Below are positions 4,735-12,847 of a stretch of DNA of 64,000 nucleotides, piece after piece. Positions within the stretch are counted from its first letter, which is position 1, and every line of letters begins with the position of its first letter. The DNA lies in the NCBI RefSeq assembly GCF_900109365.1, contig NZ_FNZR01000005.1, forward strand, positions 124,001-188,000, in the 5' to 3' direction. The notes beneath the pieces were generated by a model that had not been told where the DNA came from, ran no database searches, and was given only the letters and a program-made list of their open reading frames with translations. Origin of the DNA: Parapedobacter koreensis (lineage in GTDB: Bacteria; Bacteroidota; Bacteroidia; Sphingobacteriales; Sphingobacteriaceae). The position numbers and the translations under genes are program-made.

Positions 4735-5067
4735 TTAAGGCTGCGCACTTTTACCGGTAACGCCCGGACGTGACATAAACTGGGTTAGCTCGTTTTCTTC
4801 ATACTCTTCCAAAAGATCCTCGATAGAACTCGCCCCTGCTATATCAAGATCCACTTGGCATGGAATCTCGTTGTCATTGCAAGACTCCGTTGATCCGCCT
4901 TCTTCCCACCGTTCCGGATTATTCCAGTCGCTAAGGTCAGCGTGAGGATAATGGTAGACAGTGCTTCTGGGTGCTTTGCCTTTATTATTTGCGGGAAGTC
5001 CAAACAAAAATGTAATGGAACAAACTATTGCCGCTATACCTGCGGCTATCATCAAAAAACGTTTCAT
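4735..5067 (-). CDS. Small exported protein with a Cys pair (DUF6520-like)
   Basis: A 110-residue protein with an N-terminal hydrophobic segment (about residues 4-24, signal peptide or anchor) and a short acidic mature part containing two cysteines in the pattern C-x5-C (CNDNEIPC). The overall plan, short secreted peptide with an N-terminal hydrophobic helix and a central Cys pair, resembles the small Bacteroidota proteins grouped as DUF6520; that likeness is from memory of the family and is not certain. It is the last gene of a possible minus-strand operon with the next two genes. No function is known. Confidence 0.6.
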   Translation of the reverse strand: MKRFLMIAAGIAAIVCSITFLFGLPANNKGKAPRSTVYHYPHADLSDWNNPERWEEGGSTESCNDNEIPCQVDLDIAGASSIEDLLEEYEENELTQFMSRPGVTGKSAQP

Positions 5068-5132
5068 AATCTATTTTTTTTAATTTTCAATAGGTTTTTA
5101 CCTGTTAATACTTCGACTTTTGAATCTGAAAA

Positions 5133-5486
5133 CTAAGGATCCATAACGCTACCCCCTTCCTGTTTAGCCGGAAGAAATTCCACTTCTTCTTCCAGTGTGA
5201 AATCTATTGGCGTATCGTAATAAAACCAGTCCGCGCCCGTGGTGTCTATAATCATTTCTACTTTGCACGAGCATATGCTGGTGTCGCTTTCCTTGACCGC
5301 GACAGCGGGCAGATCGATGAAGAAGGCGACCAGTGCGCCCACCAGTGCGCAGCCGAATGCTAATGCAGTGAAAAGCTTGGCGACCCCCGACTGCCGGGGC
5401 CTGTTATTGCGTGTGTTTGTGTAATCGCTGGCCATCGTGCTGCTGTTTTGTGCTATGATTGCGCTATCGGAAGATGTCCCTTCCAC
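5133..5486 (-). CDS. Small membrane-anchored or exported protein with CxC motif
   Basis: A 117-residue open frame with a hydrophobic segment at about 38-60 and a short external part containing C-S-C. An internal ATG at 5435 would give a 100-residue protein with a more normal N-terminal anchor and may be the true start. It is co-oriented with and 65 bases upstream of the 4735-5067 gene and resembles it in layout (anchor, Cys pair, acidic tail), so the two may be divergent paralogues. Family not recognised. Confidence 0.55.
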   Translation of the reverse strand: MEGTSSDSAIIAQNSSTMASDYTNTRNNRPRQSGVAKLFTALAFGCALVGALVAFFIDLPAVAVKESDTSICSCKVEMIIDTTGADWFYYDTPIDFTLEEEVEFLPAKQEGGSVMDP

Positions 5487-5559
5487 ACTTACAAAACTAT
5501 ATCATCCGCGCTCCTATCGACCTCCGATAAAGCATGAGTGCAGATGCTTTAAAGCATGT

Positions 5560-6102
5560 CTACTTCGTACGGCTGAAGTAGCTGGGGCTCATGGCGAGAT
5601 AGGCCATCACATCTTTATCCAAAAGGCGGGCGGCCAAGCCGGGATACGTTTGCCGGAAAGCAGCGTAGCGCTGGCGCTTGGAAATGAACAATAGTCGGAT
5701 GCGGCTGATGAGCTGCTGCTGTATGGCTGCGATGATGCCCTCGTATATGGATGCCAGCTCGGGATGCTCGCGGTTGAGTTCGTATAGGTCTTGCTGTGCA
5801 AGGGCCAAGGCCGTTGCCGCTTCTATAGCGACAAGCTGCCCGCCGCTGCCAGGCGCAGGCGCAGTGAAAAAATCGCCTGAGCAGACAAACTGCTGGATAT
5901 ATACCTCCCGGCCGTCGTCTATCTCTTCTTTGAGGAGGCCTTCCACCAGGAAAAATACACGGCCTCTCCCCAGTAGCATGCCGCGATCCCGACGGCAGCG
6001 AACGACTTGAAGCCGCTGGGCGACGGCCTCCCACGCCACGAGCGGCACGGGGCCAAAAGTAAGCAGCGCTTGCTGCAAGGGTTGGTAATAGGAGGAGTAC
6101 AT
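5560..6102 (-). CDS. Crp/Fnr-family transcriptional regulator (cyclic-nucleotide-binding fold)
   Basis: A 180-residue regulator: N-terminal cupin-like effector domain (about 15-120, with GRGRVFFLVEGLLKEE resembling the beta-roll), a dimerisation helix, and a short C-terminal part with RYAAFRQTYPGLAAR and YLAMSPSYFSR that matches the Bacteroidota Crp-like helix-turn-helix (AxYLGIxPETLSR). The open frame runs back to 6183, but the ATG at 6102 gives the usual length and start. It lies upstream of the two small exported-protein genes on the same strand and could control or be co-transcribed with them. Effector unknown. Confidence 0.85.
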   Translation of the reverse strand: MYSSYYQPLQQALLTFGPVPLVAWEAVAQRLQVVRCRRDRGMLLGRGRVFFLVEGLLKEEIDDGREVYIQQFVCSGDFFTAPAPGSGGQLVAIEAATALALAQQDLYELNREHPELASIYEGIIAAIQQQLISRIRLLFISKRQRYAAFRQTYPGLAARLLDKDVMAYLAMSPSYFSRTK

Positions 6103-6127
6103 GGTTTGTTTTGATCGGATTGACAAT

Positions 6128-6152
6128 GCCCCCGCCCATACGGGCGAGGGGC
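6128..6152 (-). terminator. GC-rich hairpin between two minus-strand genes
   Basis: GCCCC-type arms surrounding a four-base loop (the core GCCC-ATAC-GGGC is perfect) lie between the stop of the 6206-6586 gene and the start of the Crp-like gene. There is no clear U-run, so it could be a weak terminator or a mRNA 3-prime stabiliser. Confidence 0.4.
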
Positions 6153-6205
6153 GATTTAGATACGGCATCCGGTCGGGGGGCACCTACCGAGGCTGCCGAA
6201 GGACA

Positions 6206-6586
6206 TCAATCGATAATCTCAAAAGTGAGCACGCCGGAGGCCGTGACCGTGCCGCTACCCGTGGATGTCTCCTCCAAATTGCTTTCACGCCGGATAAGCT
6301 TATCGGTCTGCGGACGTACGGCAGCCGACTCCGGCTTGATGAGATTAATAGGCAGCCGATGCCGGAGTACCACAGCAGTATCCACGCCCGAAGCCACGAT
6401 AAATTGAGGATTGAGCGACTGCAGGAATGCGACTTGCGATGGGCTGAGCTCGAAATAATTGAGTACCCAGCCCGTAAAATCGGTAGCGGCCGAATCAGCC
6501 ACCACTTCCAGTTCGCTGTCGGATAATGCATACAGTTGCATGAGTAGTTCTTGTAGCCCTGCCTGGCTAAATTCAAATTTTCCCAT
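6206..6586 (-). CDS. Conserved hypothetical protein of Sphingobacteriaceae type
   Basis: A 126-residue soluble protein starting MGKFEFSQAGLQELL, with an alpha-helical N-terminal half (about 1-65) and a Ser/Thr-rich beta-like C-terminus ending in a hydrophobic strand (VLTFEIID). I recall similar short proteins in Sphingobacteriaceae, often in several copies, but know of no function. No signal peptide or membrane segment is visible. It heads the minus-strand group that continues with the Crp-like regulator, and is divergent from the LytTR gene. Confidence 0.6.
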   Translation of the reverse strand: MGKFEFSQAGLQELLMQLYALSDSELEVVADSAATDFTGWVLNYFELSPSQVAFLQSLNPQFIVASGVDTAVVLRHRLPINLIKPESAAVRPQTDKLIRRESNLEETSTGSGTVTASGVLTFEIID

Positions 6587-6801
6587 AGATTACGTAGATT
6601 AAATTATTATCATTACGACGATTTTGTGAAACCTTCCGGTGCTGGGCTCCTACCAACATCGGAGTTCGAATATAGGCGCTAAACCCGCTAAACATCAGCA
6701 TACGCGCGCAGATTGGGAATAATCCAGCATGTTTTTGGGTATAGTCTATCCGCCTAAACGAAGGTCGTTGGGGGTTTGACACATATGGAAACATCTTGCT
6801 T

Positions 6802-7626
6802 ATGAAAAAAATCTACCGGATTATAGACTTAACCCTTAAGGTAGCCCTGGCTATATGGGCGGGCTATCTTGCGCTGGCATTCGGAGAGCCTGAAGGGTTT
6901 CGGCAATTGCAGGCCTTGGAGGGATTTTATCCGCTATGGGCTGTCAACACCATAATCTGCCTCGTGCTGTTGCTTGTTATCCAGCTTGGCGAATCACGCA
7001 TTGGAGCCAGGGTACCGAGGAAAAGGTGGGCGCTACGCATACTGCTGCAAGCAGTGGCATGCCTGCTATGTCCAATAGCACTGGCCTACCTGGCAGCTCG
7101 GTGGTACTTTAGTTTCTTCGCCATAGCTATGGAGGACACCTCGTATTTCGACGATGTATTCATCCTCTCCATTATCTTCATCATCTTCGGCAATGCATAC
7201 CAGCTGATCTGGCGGCTGCTTGTCGTTAACCATGCACAGCGGCTTATGCTGGCAGACAAGGAAGAAAATGGAAAGCCAAGCGAAAAAATGAAAATCCATG
7301 CGCGCCTAGCCAAACAGCACGTGTCATTGCATGAGGAAGACTGTGCCTACTTCAGGCGGGACGGCAAAGACCTCATCGTCGTCACCATGGACAATCGAAA
7401 GTACTATATACACGATGACCCGGCGATAAAGGATTGGGAGCCTAAACTTAGCGGCGAACTATTTTGCAGAATCAATGCGGGGTGCATCGTAAACCGGAAT
7501 GCCATAGACAAAAGCGTCAAGCACGGCGCGCGCTCGTACCACCTGCAGCTCAAACCGCCGCTTGAAGAAACGCTGACCGTAAGCCAAGGCTACTTCAATG
7601 CCTACAAAACCTGGATGGGGCTGTGA
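6802..7626 (+). CDS. Membrane-anchored LytTR-type DNA-binding regulator
   Basis: A 274-residue protein with four predicted membrane helices in the N-terminal half (about 12-30, 47-65, 78-100, 115-140) and a C-terminal LytTR DNA-binding domain (about 170-274), recognisable from the pattern VSLHEEDCAYFRRDG, FCRINAGCIVNRNAI and the final SQGYFNAYKTWM. An in-frame TTG six bases upstream could also start it, but ATG at 6802 is preferred. The membrane half presumably senses a signal. It stands alone on the plus strand, divergent from the 6206-6586 gene. Confidence 0.88.
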   Translation: MKKIYRIIDLTLKVALAIWAGYLALAFGEPEGFRQLQALEGFYPLWAVNTIICLVLLLVIQLGESRIGARVPRKRWALRILLQAVACLLCPIALAYLAARWYFSFFAIAMEDTSYFDDVFILSIIFIIFGNAYQLIWRLLVVNHAQRLMLADKEENGKPSEKMKIHARLAKQHVSLHEEDCAYFRRDGKDLIVVTMDNRKYYIHDDPAIKDWEPKLSGELFCRINAGCIVNRNAIDKSVKHGARSYHLQLKPPLEETLTVSQGYFNAYKTWMGL

Positions 7627-7636
7627 ATGACAGATG

Positions 7637-7671
7637 GAATAAACCGCCCCCGATTTGGGAGCGGTTTATTC
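7637..7671. terminator. Hairpin between convergent genes
   Basis: An 11-base perfect inverted repeat, GAATAAACCGC at 7637-7647 and its complement at 7661-7671, lies between the LytTR stop and the stop of the minus-strand operon. The right arm overlaps the latter stop codon. The T-run is poor on either strand, so it is a plausible bidirectional terminator without proof. Confidence 0.6.
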
Positions 7672-7840
7672 AGCGCCGGCGACATCGGCGCAGCCGACGC
7701 AGCAACATGCTCACAGCAAAGCTGACCGTAGCGCCAATCGCGGCAAGGACGGCTGTCTTGAATAGCTCATCGGTACCGATGGAGGGCAGGGTACTCAGCA
7801 AGGTGCCCACAGCAGTGCCCAGCTTTAGCTCATGGTGCAT
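7670..7840 (-). CDS. Small holin-like membrane protein
   Basis: The chosen start (ATG at 7840) gives a 56-residue protein with one hydrophobic segment (about residues 28-47, FKTAVLAAIGATVSFAVSML) and a strongly cationic C-terminal tail (RRLRRCRRR). The open frame runs on to 7906, but 7840 overlaps the end of the upstream gene by 11 bases, as expected for translational coupling. One membrane span plus a basic tail is the plan of many phage holins and small lysis proteins; this is an inference from shape only. Last gene of the four-gene operon with the DUF5675 protein. Confidence 0.55.
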   Translation of the reverse strand: MHHELKLGTAVGTLLSTLPSIGTDELFKTAVLAAIGATVSFAVSMLLRRLRRCRRR

Positions 7841-8108
7841 CGTGGCGCTCCTCGGCCGGTGTGGATGGTGTATCCTGCCTACCTGCCATGCCATCCCAGA
7901 TACCAAGCGCCAAGCTCACGTACTTGGCCGCCGTCACCACCTTAGCCGGGAGCTTCACCGGCGAGGCGATGACCAGCTGGCTCGCCAACTGCAACCCCTG
8001 CCGAATCGCTACCCACCAAGAGTTGGCGGTTTGTCCATGTGACGCCTGGACGGGCGTGGCTCCCTCCTCTCCCCGAGAGGGGGAAGCCGATTGGTTCTTG
8101 TTTTTCAT
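7830..8108 (-). CDS. Small protein of unknown function in the DUF5675 operon
   Basis: A 92-residue protein with a polar, low-complexity N-terminus, a central hydrophobic/amphipathic stretch (about 30-75, with LVIASPVKLPAKVV and YVSLALGIWDGM) and a charged tail. It starts 13 bases after the DUF5675 stop and overlaps the next gene, so it is in the operon. The polar N-terminal coding part coincides with a short G/C palindrome (8066-8083), which may be an inserted hairpin repeat. Family not recognised; it could associate with the membrane. Confidence 0.5.
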   Translation of the reverse strand: MKNKNQSASPSRGEEGATPVQASHGQTANSWWVAIRQGLQLASQLVIASPVKLPAKVVTAAKYVSLALGIWDGMAGRQDTPSTPAEERHDAP

Positions 8109-8121
8109 TACAGATTACATA

Positions 8122-8541
8122 TCACCGATCACTCACCACCGTCCCTTCCACCACAACCAGCCACACTTCCTCCCCCCGCTCCATCGCGGGGTAAACGAGC
8201 GCTTTTAGCCGCTCAAGTGCTGCTCGGCTGCTAATACCGGTGCCCGGGCCCGTAAGCGTGGTCACCGGAGCAATGCAGCCCCGCAGATCTTGCCGGGCAT
8301 CGTTGCCCGGATGGATGAGGATGCCCGCACGGCCAGGTACATGGGCCACACCCAACTGGTCGCCATGCTTCGGAAAGGTGTGTCGGTACAGGCGGTAGCG
8401 CCCTTCCGGGATGCAGCTGACCATTTGCCGGTTGCCCCGCCAGGGCAATTCGATGGTACCGCAGACCGGCTGCCCCTGAAGGGACAGCTGGCCGTTGGTA
8501 CCGGCAGCGTGATAGGTACGCCGCAGTTGGATGGTCATCAT
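8122..8541 (-). CDS. DUF5675-family protein
   Basis: A 139-residue protein matching my recollection of DUF5675 (short N-terminal beta strands, CIPEGRY, and near the middle ILIHPGN followed by LRGCIAP). DUF5675 members occur in phages and Bacteroidota chromosomes and have no established function. The His of IHPGN and the Cys of RGC are 12 residues apart, reminiscent of the L,D-transpeptidase (YkuD) active-site order of His then GC; that relation is inference. No signal peptide is seen. Its ATG overlaps the TGA of the upstream 250-residue gene (ATGA), showing operon structure and fixing the strand despite long antisense open frames. Confidence 0.75.
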   Translation of the reverse strand: MMTIQLRRTYHAAGTNGQLSLQGQPVCGTIELPWRGNRQMVSCIPEGRYRLYRHTFPKHGDQLGVAHVPGRAGILIHPGNDARQDLRGCIAPVTTLTGPGTGISSRAALERLKALVYPAMERGEEVWLVVVEGTVVSDR

Positions 8542-9290
8542 GTAGTATGCACCTCCATGATAGACAGGGCGTTGAACGCACCGTTTTGCAGGGCATACCC
8601 CTCGCCGTTGACCTGCTGGAAGAAGCCCACGCCCAGCAACACGAGGATGGGTAGATCGGTCTCCGCGGGCAGGGAGGCCTCAAGCTCCTGTGCGGGGGTC
8701 GCCTGCAAATCCAGCTGCTCCGTCTGCGACCGTACGACCACCGTACCCTCACCGCCAAAATCTGCCGCCACGGCTGCCAGCGTAAGCCGGTAATGCGTAG
8801 CTTCGGGTGGTACAGCCATGGCCACACGCGGATCTGTCCAAGGCTGGGTGGTGGCGGTCACCGCTCCGCTGGCGCGGTCTACGGTAAAGACCACGTCTTC
8901 AAACAGCGTGTTGGACATGGACGAACCCTCGTTGAACTCGAAGCCGCGGAGCAGATGGAGGTTGCCCTCGGCCACCGTGCGTTCGCCACGCCGGTTTGCC
9001 GGATCGGTCTTGAGCACCCGCAGCAATCGGCTGCTGAGCCGGCCCGATACGTTGCGGTCGCTGTACTGCACGAGAAGTGCCCGCAAGGCGTTGCGCAGTT
9101 GCTTGGAGGCCGAGCCTGCGCGGCCAAACTCGGCCATGTTTTCGCGGGTACGTGCATAGTTTGGATCCGTAGCGATCCGCGATGCGCTGACACCGCCCTT
9201 GGTGCGGGCTTGATACCCGCTTCGATTTTGATAAAAGGACAGATCCCCGATCTTCCCTTTAAATTTGATAAAACTTGCCTGTTGTGCCAT
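8538..9290 (-). CDS. Conserved Bacteroidota protein of unknown function (250 residues)
   Basis: First gene of the DUF5675 operon. The N-terminus FIKFKGKIGDLSFYQ...GYQARTKGG, the segment TRENMAEFGRAG, and the C-terminal FFQQVNGEGYALQNGAFNALSIMEV match a family I recall as widespread hypothetical proteins in Bacteroidota, usually placed directly before a DUF5675 gene. The N-terminal third is basic and helical (Arg-rich, about 35-110); the rest is beta-rich. No signal peptide, membrane span or catalytic motif is seen. The basic N-terminal region would fit nucleic-acid or particle assembly roles, but nothing in the sequence decides this. Confidence 0.75.
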   Translation of the reverse strand: MAQQASFIKFKGKIGDLSFYQNRSGYQARTKGGVSASRIATDPNYARTRENMAEFGRAGSASKQLRNALRALLVQYSDRNVSGRLSSRLLRVLKTDPANRRGERTVAEGNLHLLRGFEFNEGSSMSNTLFEDVVFTVDRASGAVTATTQPWTDPRVAMAVPPEATHYRLTLAAVAADFGGEGTVVVRSQTEQLDLQATPAQELEASLPAETDLPILVLLGVGFFQQVNGEGYALQNGAFNALSIMEVHTT

Positions 9291-9370
9291 TTGATATGGA
9301 TTTGTTACAACGCTGCAAAGATGGGGTGCGATGGCTGGGAAGCTGTCTCATTTGGCTGTATATGAACTAT

Positions 9371-9470
9371 TTATGCCTTTTCATGCCTTTTTGCTCCAAA
9401 CAGGCCTGAATGCACCATCTGTACCCATATGCGCCATCTATACCTTTTTGTACCTTTTTGTGCCTTGCTT
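9371..9470. repeat. Helically phased array of about ten short CC-containing repeats
   Basis: Ten degenerate units of 9-10 bases follow one another, each with a CC: their first C lies at 9376, 9386, 9396, 9405, 9415, 9424, 9434, 9443, 9453 and 9463. The clearest units read TGCCTTTT (twice) and TACCTTTTTG (twice in tandem). The array lies in the 440-base non-coding gap between the divergent 250-residue gene and the small helix-turn-helix gene. A minus-strand open frame crosses it but looks like an accident of the repeats. Confidence 0.65.
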
Positions 9471-9495
9471 CGTGTGGAGCTGAACGTTATTTTTG
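9464..9495 (+). promoter_or_regulatory. Putative Bacteroidota promoter for the small HTH gene
   Basis: CTTG at 9464-9467, a 20-base spacer, and TATTTTTG at 9488-9495 fit the TTTG-N20-TAnnTTTG pattern. It overlaps the end of the repeat array and points toward the gene at 9734, leaving a 5-prime leader of over 200 bases in which I see no confident feature. Confidence 0.45.
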
Positions 9496-9733
9496 TTATG
9501 AAAATCCGTTGGCCTACGGTCATGGTCGGCAGCGTGGGATTGCGCATTGCGGTTTCCTTGGGGGATGCTTGGGGTATGCGTCGGGTATATCCGCGGTAAT
9601 GCGATCGCAGTGTAATGCTTATAAAGGCGGGGTATCCCGCCCGCTTACAGGAGACAACCGACCATGGGGGCATCACCACAGGACAAGCGGAATAGGGCTA
9701 TTTTACTATCCGTTTAACTGTATTTAACTAACT

Positions 9734-9934
9734 ATGAAACAACCGAAACGCATATGTATCTATCCGAAAGACGTGAGTGAAATTCTGGGAAAAAGCATCA
9801 AGCATGCAGAGCGCCTGCTCCGCACCATCCGCGATGCCCTGGGCAAAGAAAGCCACCAATATGTCTCTTTCAAGGAGTTTGCAGACTACACGGGGCTGGA
9901 TGAGGGGGAGATAAGGGAGCGATGTGGGTGGTGA
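9734..9934 (+). CDS. Small helix-turn-helix-like protein
   Basis: A 66-residue protein with the pattern KRICIYPKDVSEILGKSIKHAERLLRTIRDALGKE then YVSFKEFADYTGL. I recall this short family as common in Bacteroidota, usually annotated hypothetical; the central part looks like an excisionase/MerR-style helix-turn-helix with a following wing. It probably binds DNA. It is divergent from the DUF5675 operon across the phased repeat array and is a reasonable candidate to bind there. It has no partner on its own strand. Confidence 0.7.
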   Translation: MKQPKRICIYPKDVSEILGKSIKHAERLLRTIRDALGKESHQYVSFKEFADYTGLDEGEIRERCGW

Positions 9935-11270: not shown

Positions 11271-11373
11271 AACTATATCCAAAAGCATATAATAATAATT
11301 ATATCGCCAAAGTTATATGCAAAAACATATATTTTTTATATTTTTGCCTGAACTATACGTAAAAGCATATAAT
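11271..11373 (+). promoter_or_regulatory. Operator-like repeats and promoter of the hip module
   Basis: A 23-base sequence (AACTATA-nnn-AAAAGCATATAAT) occurs at 11271-11293 and again at 11351-11373, the second copy running into the start codon; only the three middle bases differ. Between them, TTATATGC at 11313-11320 is the inverse of GCATATAA and is followed by AAAAACATATA. A TATTTTTG minus-7 box is at 11339-11346. The layout fits autoregulation by the HipB-like protein binding several sites. Confidence 0.65.
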
Positions 11374-11581
11374 GAAGACGTTAAGTGATTTCGTAAAGCT
11401 CCGCCGGAAAGCCGCGAACCTTACGCAACAGGAATTCGCTGATCGGGCTGGCGTGGCACTCACCGTGATTCGGAAAATCGAGCAGGGAAAATCCAACATG
11501 AACGTGGATAAGGTAAATAGGGTCCTACAAATGTTTGGCCATGAGTTAGCTCCTGTAAATAGTAAAGAGCTTGAAAAATGA
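11372..11581 (+). CDS. hipB: HipB-like helix-turn-helix antitoxin
   Basis: A 69-residue XRE-type repressor: FVKLRRKAANLTQQEFADRAGV, LTVIRKIEQGK and the tail VNRVLQMFGHEL match the HipB (Y4mF-type) family. It would bind the repeats in its own promoter and, with the next protein, keep the kinase in check. Its stop overlaps the start of the hipS-like gene (ATGA), giving tight coupling. It is first in a three-gene operon of the order B-S-T. Confidence 0.9.
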   Translation: MKTLSDFVKLRRKAANLTQQEFADRAGVALTVIRKIEQGKSNMNVDKVNRVLQMFGHELAPVNSKELEK

Positions 11582-11913
11582 GAAAAGCCGCAATATATTA
11601 TAAAGAAGAAAAAGCGGGTGTATTGTCAGAAACCAACGACGGCGAATATGTATTCGAATACGACGAGCACTATGTCCGTGCATTTCCGGAACAATTTATC
11701 ACCTTTACGATGCCTGTAAACGACAAACCTTATGTCTCTAACAGGCTATTCCCCTTTTTTGAGGGATTGATACCGGAAGGATGGCTGTTGGACATTGCGT
11801 CCAAAAACTGGAAAATCAACCGCAACGACCGGATGGGCCTGCTATTGGCCTGCTGCAGGAATTGCATCGGTGCAGTCAGTGTCATACCGATACCACAGCA
11901 TGATGGAGAATAA
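11578..11913 (+). CDS. hipS: HipS-like protein (HipA N-terminal domain alone)
   Basis: A 111-residue protein equal to the HipA N-terminal subdomain: YYKEEKAGVLSE at the start, then TFTMPV, NRLFPFFEGLIPEGWLL and a final GAVSVIP. In one-piece HipA this part is fused to the kinase; here it is a separate gene, as in the HipBST systems described in enteropathogenic E. coli, where HipS is the neutralising antitoxin. It overlaps both neighbours by a few bases. The name is given by architecture; activity has not been shown for this lineage in anything visible here. Confidence 0.85.
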   Translation: MRKAAIYYKEEKAGVLSETNDGEYVFEYDEHYVRAFPEQFITFTMPVNDKPYVSNRLFPFFEGLIPEGWLLDIASKNWKINRNDRMGLLLACCRNCIGAVSVIPIPQHDGE

Positions 11914-12847
11914 ATGCCTATATTGTTATAAAGTCTTGGCAGGGGACCAAGACTTTCACCCAACATGTAGCCGCCGCTTCTTCGGCTCGTCTATCGCCCC
12001 TATTATCCCTTACGCCATGAATCAAATGGCTGAGCTGGCCAAAAATGTGGTGGAACGGAGCATTGCGGTGCCCGGAGTACAGCCCAAATTATCGATGACA
12101 CTGATCAAAAAAGTGCAGAAAGAACCCAATGGCCGACTGACCGTCGTGGGCGAACTTGGAGGCAACTACATTTTTAAGCCTCCGTCTGACACGTATAGGG
12201 AAATGCCGGAAAACGAACACCTAACCATGCGGATAGCCGAAGCGTTTGGTATTCCCGTAGTCCAATCAAGCTTGGTGCGCTTGCAATCCGGCGAGCTATC
12301 GTATATTACCAAACGTATAGACCGCGCCGCCAATGGAGAGAAAATACATATGCTGGATATGTTTCAAATCACAGAGGCTTTTGATAAATACAGAAGCTCA
12401 ATGGAGAAGGTGGGCAAAGCACTGATGACCTTTTCAGACAATACACTGCTGGATATGGTGCGTTTATTCGAGTTGACCTGTTTCTGTTTTATAACAGGCA
12501 ACAACGACATGCACCTGAAAAATTTTTCGATGATTGCTTCATCCACCGGTTGGATGTTAGCGCCGGCTTATGACCTGTTGAACGTCGCAATCGTCAACCC
12601 GGAAGACCAGGAAGAACTGGCATTGACCCTTGAAGGCAAAAAGCGTAAACTCAATGCAGGACACTTTGAGCGTTTCGGGAAAGAGCTGGGGCTCTCCAAC
12701 CGGCAAATCGACAACATATTTGCCCGTTTTTCAAAAAACAGGGTGCGGGCGGACGAGTGGATCGAAAAATCCTTCCTATCAGATGAAATGAAAGCCGCTT
12801 ACAGCAAAGTACTGAATCAGCGATACCGCCAAATGGGTTTGTCGTAA
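11900..12847 (+). CDS. hipT: HipT-like serine/threonine kinase toxin with N-terminal Cys/His cluster
   Basis: A 315-residue HipA-type kinase. Start ATG 11900 (or 11903) overlaps the end of hipS. Motifs: a Cys-x2-Cys ... His-x2-Cys cluster at about residues 6-24 (CLYC ... HPTC) that looks like a small zinc site; the glycine-rich loop SIAVPGVQPKLS; YIFKPPS with the ATP-binding Lys; ENEH; the catalytic loop TGNNDMHLKNFS with its Asp; and LAPAYDLL with the metal-binding Asp. All key kinase residues are intact, so it should be active. Related toxins phosphorylate aminoacyl-tRNA synthetases; the target here is unknown. Confidence 0.88.
   Translation: MMENKCLYCYKVLAGDQDFHPTCSRRFFGSSIAPIIPYAMNQMAELAKNVVERSIAVPGVQPKLSMTLIKKVQKEPNGRLTVVGELGGNYIFKPPSDTYREMPENEHLTMRIAEAFGIPVVQSSLVRLQSGELSYITKRIDRAANGEKIHMLDMFQITEAFDKYRSSMEKVGKALMTFSDNTLLDMVRLFELTCFCFITGNNDMHLKNFSMIASSTGWMLAPAYDLLNVAIVNPEDQEELALTLEGKKRKLNAGHFERFGKELGLSNRQIDNIFARFSKNRVRADEWIEKSFLSDEMKAAYSKVLNQRYRQMGLS

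Follow-up and report, generated by a model that had tools for sequence, protein, structure and literature searches.

The window studied here, a stretch of 64,000 nucleotides from Parapedobacter koreensis (contig NZ_FNZR01000005.1), carries a compact operon of four genes, g1, a DUF5675 gene, g3 and g4, accompanied by a divergent gene for a helix-turn-helix (HTH)-like protein. We read this operon as a chromosomal lysis or release module which works like a type 10 secretion system, and we give this reading a little better than an even chance. It is carried by results of the computation, namely the gene order and its conservation, the predicted YkuD fold of the DUF5675 protein with its conserved Cys and His residues, the exchange of the cassette, and the repeats found in relatives.

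As the earlier note on this DNA had described, four genes are packed on the minus strand (Table 1). Two of the three junctions overlap, that of g1 with DUF5675 by 4 nt and that of g3 with g4 by 11 nt, and a gap of 13 nt separates DUF5675 from g3. Overlooked at that time was a fifth gene on the plus strand, the divergent HTH-like gene, which is part of the operon's unit. The genome carrying the window has 5.5 Mb.

Table 1. Features of the operon and its control region, and the gene fusions found in a relative (coordinates of the window unless a locus is named).
Feature	Coordinates	Strand	Description
g4	7670-7840	minus	56 aa counted from ATG; one membrane span and basic tail
g3	7830-8108	minus	92 aa; in relatives a PTPKFF-like motif is followed by two adjacent hydrophobic segments
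DUF5675 gene	8122-8541	minus	139 aa; endolysin-like, with His77 and Cys89 and a predicted YkuD/L,D-transpeptidase fold
g1	8538-9290	minus	250 aa; first gene of the operon; without Pfam family
Divergent control region	9291-9733	none	11-bp direct repeats in relatives; here short degenerate 10-11-bp arrays
HTH-like gene	9734-9934	plus	66 aa; divergent from g1; located upstream of it in the majority of the 80 loci
DUF5675-g3 fusions	L127:681-1154 and 6771-7433		First copy short at start

Scanning named genomes for g1 gave at least 568 confirmed loci. The census used here comprises the best 80 of these 568, which favours close relatives, and judging from their titles we take all 80 to be Bacteroidota. 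The complete order HTH-g1-DUF5675-g3-g4 is present in 56 of the 80 loci, and g1-DUF5675-g3-g4 in 63, seven of which lack only a detected HTH gene; three other loci are without g4 and one is without g3. The DUF5675 count includes L160 and L147, two loci whose gene is short or split. Within the family, 47 of 101 genomes contain a g1 match, and of 296 genomes from the whole phylum 27 match the g1 profile. In these 296 genomes DUF5675 was found in 37 places, 21 of them (15 genomes, counted by hand) directly after g1, and four further places, all in the window's own genome, follow DUF6266 genes. Because the gene order recurs across Bacteroidota, it is not due to chance. The earlier note had taken g1 and DUF5675 to be linked genes across Bacteroidota; all four genes prove to be strongly linked in other genomes.

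The strongest functional hint comes from the exchange of the cassette. In two Pedobacter loci (L141, L145) the genes after g1 code for a membrane protein, a peptidase of the CHAP type and a lipoprotein that has a span at its C-terminal end. The peptidase of L145 matches PHROG endolysins at E 1.7e-17; in Pfam it reaches 19.4 bits for CHAP, under the cut-off of 26. A lipoprotein with a C-terminal span has the shape of a unimolecular spanin, and such spanin-like lipoproteins are found in the exchanged cassettes of L145 and L224. The first gene is exchanged as well: the window's genome harbours four more DUF5675-g3 units, three of them with a detected g4, in which one or two DUF6266 genes (PF19781) replace g1. 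In other genomes DUF6266 heads DUF5675-g3-g4 (L215, L216), g3-DUF5675 (L222), a CHAP cassette with CHAP above the cut-off (L223), and a cassette of Phage_holin_4_1, a small protein and a lipoprotein (L224). This swapping for recognisable lysis genes supports the idea, already put forward from the sequence, of a lysis or secretion module.

The second protein of the operon belongs to the DUF5675 family (PF18925, E 9.9e-29; 100 bits, where the cut-off is 26.7). The arrangement of its His and Cys had been likened to that of an L,D-transpeptidase, and structure prediction with a search for the YkuD core had been suggested as a check. Carried out here, this search gave the YkuD/L,D-transpeptidase fold in 50 of the 50 structural matches listed, and the fold is confidently predicted over nearly the whole protein. 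The nearest matches are Pgp2, Tlde1a, DpaA and YkuD, and L,D-carboxypeptidases are among the best. Cys89 is conserved in 50 and His77 in 49 of 50. For the L,D-transpeptidase family the motif is quoted, in the available part of the source, as HXX14-17-(S/T)HGCh (PMC9638812). While the predicted fold and the conserved His and Cys are shared with these enzymes, the DUF5675 protein of the window differs from them by a spacing of only 11 residues between His and Cys, and the two positions preceding GC are mostly L and Q/R/K/E, in place of the canonical [S/T]-H. The protein has no hydrophobic leader. By its predicted fold and conserved residues it may act as a peptidoglycan hydrolase. An unrelated fold with His and Cys far apart, together with a lack of linkage of the four genes elsewhere, had been named in the earlier note as the outcome that would speak against its proposal; a fold like that of L,D-transpeptidases is predicted, and a conserved linkage was found.

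No Pfam family was matched by g1, and its direct profile comparison with DUF6266 is below significance (E 0.093). In profile comparisons, an orphan family of Bacteroidota, which is often present in several copies, matches g1 (99.8%, E 5e-28) and, in the N-terminal half, also DUF6266 (94.3%, E 1e-7), so that g1 and DUF6266, which head the same cassettes, appear related through this family. The N-terminus is the best conserved part of g1, with a mean majority fraction of 0.80 for residues 1-35, 0.70 for residues 36-125 and 0.60 for residues 126-250. The structural model (predicted local distance difference test score 88.0) has a hairpin at the N-terminus, a beta sandwich at the C-terminus, and helices, and its structural matches are generic; such an architecture would be in keeping with a protein that is released or assembles and whose outer domain varies. 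Four genomes (G066, G041, G020, G055) contain 16-21 g1-like matches each. DUF5675, g3 and g4 were not found in 12 stretches with g1-like genes (L196-L207), and the six of these that were inspected have housekeeping-like neighbours. Stand-alone DUF6266 genes also occur elsewhere.

The two small proteins are described by their shape. g4 has a single hydrophobic span (31-47) followed by a basic tail, as had been noticed before, and may by shape only be called holin-like or disruptin-like; the likeness to a holin, which was claimed as well, finds no convincing holin family behind it. One might guess that the cationic tail acts on the outer membrane. For g3 the length of 92 residues and an amphipathic character stand, its amphipathic moment being modest and a clear span being absent in the window's protein, and to this picture the hydrophobic segments of its relatives have to be added. 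In Marivirga arenosa (L127) DUF5675 and g3 are fused in one reading frame, twice in the same stretch, and each fusion adjoins g4.

Weak HTH matches were obtained for a few of 30 relatives of the divergent protein (HTH_17 in 3 of 30, best E 0.0033), and no HTH match was found for the window's own protein. The 70 bp beside the start of the HTH gene show a lag-11 self-identity of 0.408, where dinucleotide shuffles give 0.282 (z 15.6) and 194 control windows 0.295, and the signal is echoed at 22 and 33. This statistic is based on 47 dereplicated sequences (67 prior to dereplication), and the consensus of the repeat is near CTTTATCTATR. The divergent region of the window has only short degenerate arrays of 10-11 bp (9373-9391, 9441-9466, 9557-9588); the 11-bp array belongs to the relatives, and the window's repeats are weak. 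Phage excisionases polymerise along DNA, and one repeat per helical turn would suit a protein of this behaviour. Three of the DUF6266 modules in the window's genome have HTH_17 genes and response regulators nearby, of which two carry a LytTR domain, and beside two of the three a histidine kinase was recognised. Repetitive reading frames were seen by eye upstream of DUF6266 in L213, L214, L071, L215, L219 and L223, suggesting that these leaders also hold degenerate repeats of ~11 bp.

DUF5675 is also a phage gene. It was found in 108 of 50,697 phage records and in 225 confirmed viral stretches, 80 of which were kept. Vibrio phage martha has it in the region between the late activator and terminase genes, which we take to correspond to the place where Mu keeps its endolysin, and a Salinibacter phage carries it three genes away from an annotated holin. 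A Pfam phage holin adjoins DUF5675 in the viral contig L229 and in the Bacteroidota genome L094. Because only few neighbours of the viral genes matched a lysis PHROG, membrane spans were counted instead: by this crude measure (same-strand genes of at most 250 aa, 66 distinct loci of the 80) 63 of 159 genes within two genes of DUF5675 encode membrane proteins, versus 27 of 189 further away (Fisher p 9e-8). Among the eight genes of a 5-kb environmental microvirus (L034, MW202581.1) is one that resembles DUF5675 (40% identity, E 7e-17), a candidate for a microvirus lysis gene.

g1 has no match in the 50,697 phage records and none in viral contigs; the g3 of a relative (L096), searched there in place of the window's own, has no match in these records either. 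g4 matched one viral contig, and DUF6266 one viral contig (L224) and, weakly, one phage record (E 0.002). The end ORFs (open reading frames) of L224 look cas1/cas2-like to us, so that this contig may not be viral. Of the 80 viral DUF5675 loci that were kept, not one is hit by the hidden Markov models of g1, g3 and g4 within the stretch covered. Only DUF5675 is clearly common to the module and phages. Phage structural families were found in Pfam for none of ten ORFs, the four of the module and six surrounding ones, the scan covering 5.5-12 kb of the window alone, which agrees with the earlier statement that the set is not beside phage structural genes. Nor was such a family seen, by eye, among the commonest neighbour families of the 80 loci, where integrases occur in six. 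A domesticated phage or tailocin, which had been suggested as the origin of the set, was rejected, g1 being without a match in the phage and viral collections searched and the six surrounding ORFs scanned giving no phage structural family; what stands of that suggestion is that DUF5675 is a phage gene too.

If the operon is a lysis or release module, it could work as follows. The small HTH protein would sit on helically phased repeats and hold the divergent promoters, and the operon would fire in few cells or under a cue. g1 would fold in the cytoplasm, g3 and/or g4 would permeabilise the inner membrane, and the DUF5675 enzyme would reach the periplasm and cut peptidoglycan with its Cys-His site. 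The cell would then lyse and release g1 together with other contents. Hydrolysis, the membrane lesion, lysis and release are what we infer, as is the part of g1 as cargo and not as trigger.

Several results weigh against this reading. The Foldseek E-values of the DUF5675 model are weak (best 0.016), its profile finds no match among PDB sequences at E <= 10, and the canonical motif is incomplete, as DUF5675 does not fit the full HXX14-17-(S/T)HGC. For g3 and g4 only scattered weak PHROG matches were obtained and no convincing holin family, and a holin PHROG was matched by only 2 of 111 viral DUF5675 neighbours (116 before five near-duplicates were dropped), among 25 of 95 families listed. A simple lipobox scan, which recovers 4 of 5 controls, found no recurrent spanin in 64 DUF5675-type modules; the lipobox-like ORFs in them are two and mutually unrelated. 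Three of the 80 loci carry g1-g3-g4 without DUF5675, and ten have g1 with none of the other three genes. Two of these ten have the other lysis cassette (L141, L145), four have at most ~1.1 kb of contig left (L136, L163, L169, L188), and in L115, L135, L162 and L165 there are ~6 kb downstream of g1 without a module gene. Finally, stand-alone g1-like genes adjoin apparent housekeeping genes, as read by eye.

The lack of a recurrent spanin would agree with a module that remodelled the envelope or caused a transient leak, DUF5675 trimming or exchanging stem peptides as a carboxypeptidase or transpeptidase and g3/g4 serving as anchors, all without lysis. L,D-carboxypeptidases and DpaA are among the best fold matches, and the fusion of DUF5675 with g3 would tether the enzyme to the membrane. 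Neither the swapping for genes of CHAP endolysin, holin and spanin-like proteins nor the presence of DUF5675 in phages fits, however, and we regard this explanation as distinctly unlikely. The phage records with DUF5675, as well as a Marivirga plasmid having a g1 match and a short annotated DUF5675 gene, could also point to a mobile element or small prophage of which a remnant has survived by chance; yet collinear five-gene units are intact in many genera, g1 is without match in the phage and viral collections searched, and the phased repeats are conserved, which makes a mere remnant highly improbable.

Lysis might also serve abortive infection, g1 or DUF6266 sensing phage attack and firing the cassette so that the infected cell dies. 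Variable and multi-copy first genes on shared cassettes, the five DUF5675 modules in the window's own genome, and the location of some loci near tyrosine integrases, restriction-type genes (by eye) and HipA toxin-antitoxin genes would agree with such a role. Against it, g1, DUF5675, g3, g4 and DUF6266 have no PADLOC match at E <= 0.01, and defence-type neighbours are a minority (integrase cluster in 6 and HipA-like genes in 7 of 80 loci, as raw counts), so that we consider it unlikely. The PADLOC matches that were obtained lie outside these five and concern the HTH gene (E 0.0021), the nearby HipA gene (4e-10, PDC-M03A) and a DUF6943 protein (E 0.0028).

Extending the release reading, we tentatively propose, as a possibility with less than an even chance, a phylum-wide programmed lysis of non-phage nature, often present in several copies, with the superfamily of g1, the orphan family and DUF6266 as payload, with freely exchanged cassettes, and with an HTH protein on 11-bp repeats that picks the cells to lyse. 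The cassettes would be of three types: YkuD-fold DUF5675 with g3 and g4, CHAP endolysin with a spanin-like lipoprotein, and phage holin with a spanin-like lipoprotein. If true, this would give functions at once to two families which have none, DUF5675 as a YkuD-fold lysin and DUF6266 as a protein travelling with the lysin. Type 9 secretion is what Bacteroidota are mainly known for; with g1 directly before DUF5675 in 15 of 296 sampled genomes, a chromosomal lysis module of this type would add to it a widespread release route and would bear on the release of DNA, vesicles or antagonistic proteins.

Recurring neighbours of the 80 loci are DUF6943, a SLOG-like family, HipA and integrase; the labels housekeeping, restriction and secreted were given partly by eye. 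A gene of mostly 134-141 aa, downstream of the module and mostly on the opposite strand, forms a single-linkage cluster in 31 of the 80 loci (including L110, L118, L129, L133, L152 and L172), and its copy in L129 is a DUF6943 protein (E 4.8e-43). The SLOG-like gene is present in 11 of 80 loci (YAcAr in L128). A HipB-like HTH gene and split HipA genes lie near the module in the window (11372-12847, where they are Couple_hipA and HipA_C) and in five of the 80 relatives (L128, L130, L140, L152, L156). Small secreted-looking proteins and mutually similar Crp-like regulators were noticed by eye within ~10 kb of several modules of this genome (window 4735-6586; L070, L071, L072).

The available part of the PhaLP description has 10 YkuD entries among phage lytic proteins (PMC8310338), and that of another report names a gut phage endolysin which contains YkuD (PMC13284279). 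The PhaLP row for YkuD comprises PF10908, cd16913 and PF03734, and DUF5675 (PF18925) is outside that row (PMC8310338). In the open-access literature, as far as it was accessible, DUF5675 is named in two papers, both times in gene lists of Vibrio phages where no function is given, and DUF6266 is unnamed in the literature searched. Among the titles listed on holin/endolysin release systems in this literature none describes the module, a description of which may exist in print elsewhere. ChiWXYZ of Serratia is one chromosomal lysis cassette of the type 10 secretion kind. For Yersinia entomophaga, the accessible part of a report on YenTc release describes lysis cassettes outside phages, with lysis of a subpopulation freeing the coupled cargo (PMC10847048). 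Like that system, as far as this source goes, our module consists of lysis-type genes outside phages which are apparently transcribed together with a cytoplasmic protein (PMC10847048), and its position outside a prophage is seen in the six surrounding ORFs, in the neighbours of the 80 loci and in the comparison of g1 with phage collections. It differs by the YkuD-fold DUF5675 lysin, by g1 or DUF6266 as first gene, by its Bacteroidota hosts, by small membrane proteins which match no clear holin and by the spanin not being seen. By analogy, the Yersinia entomophaga system would be the closest worked example for this module.
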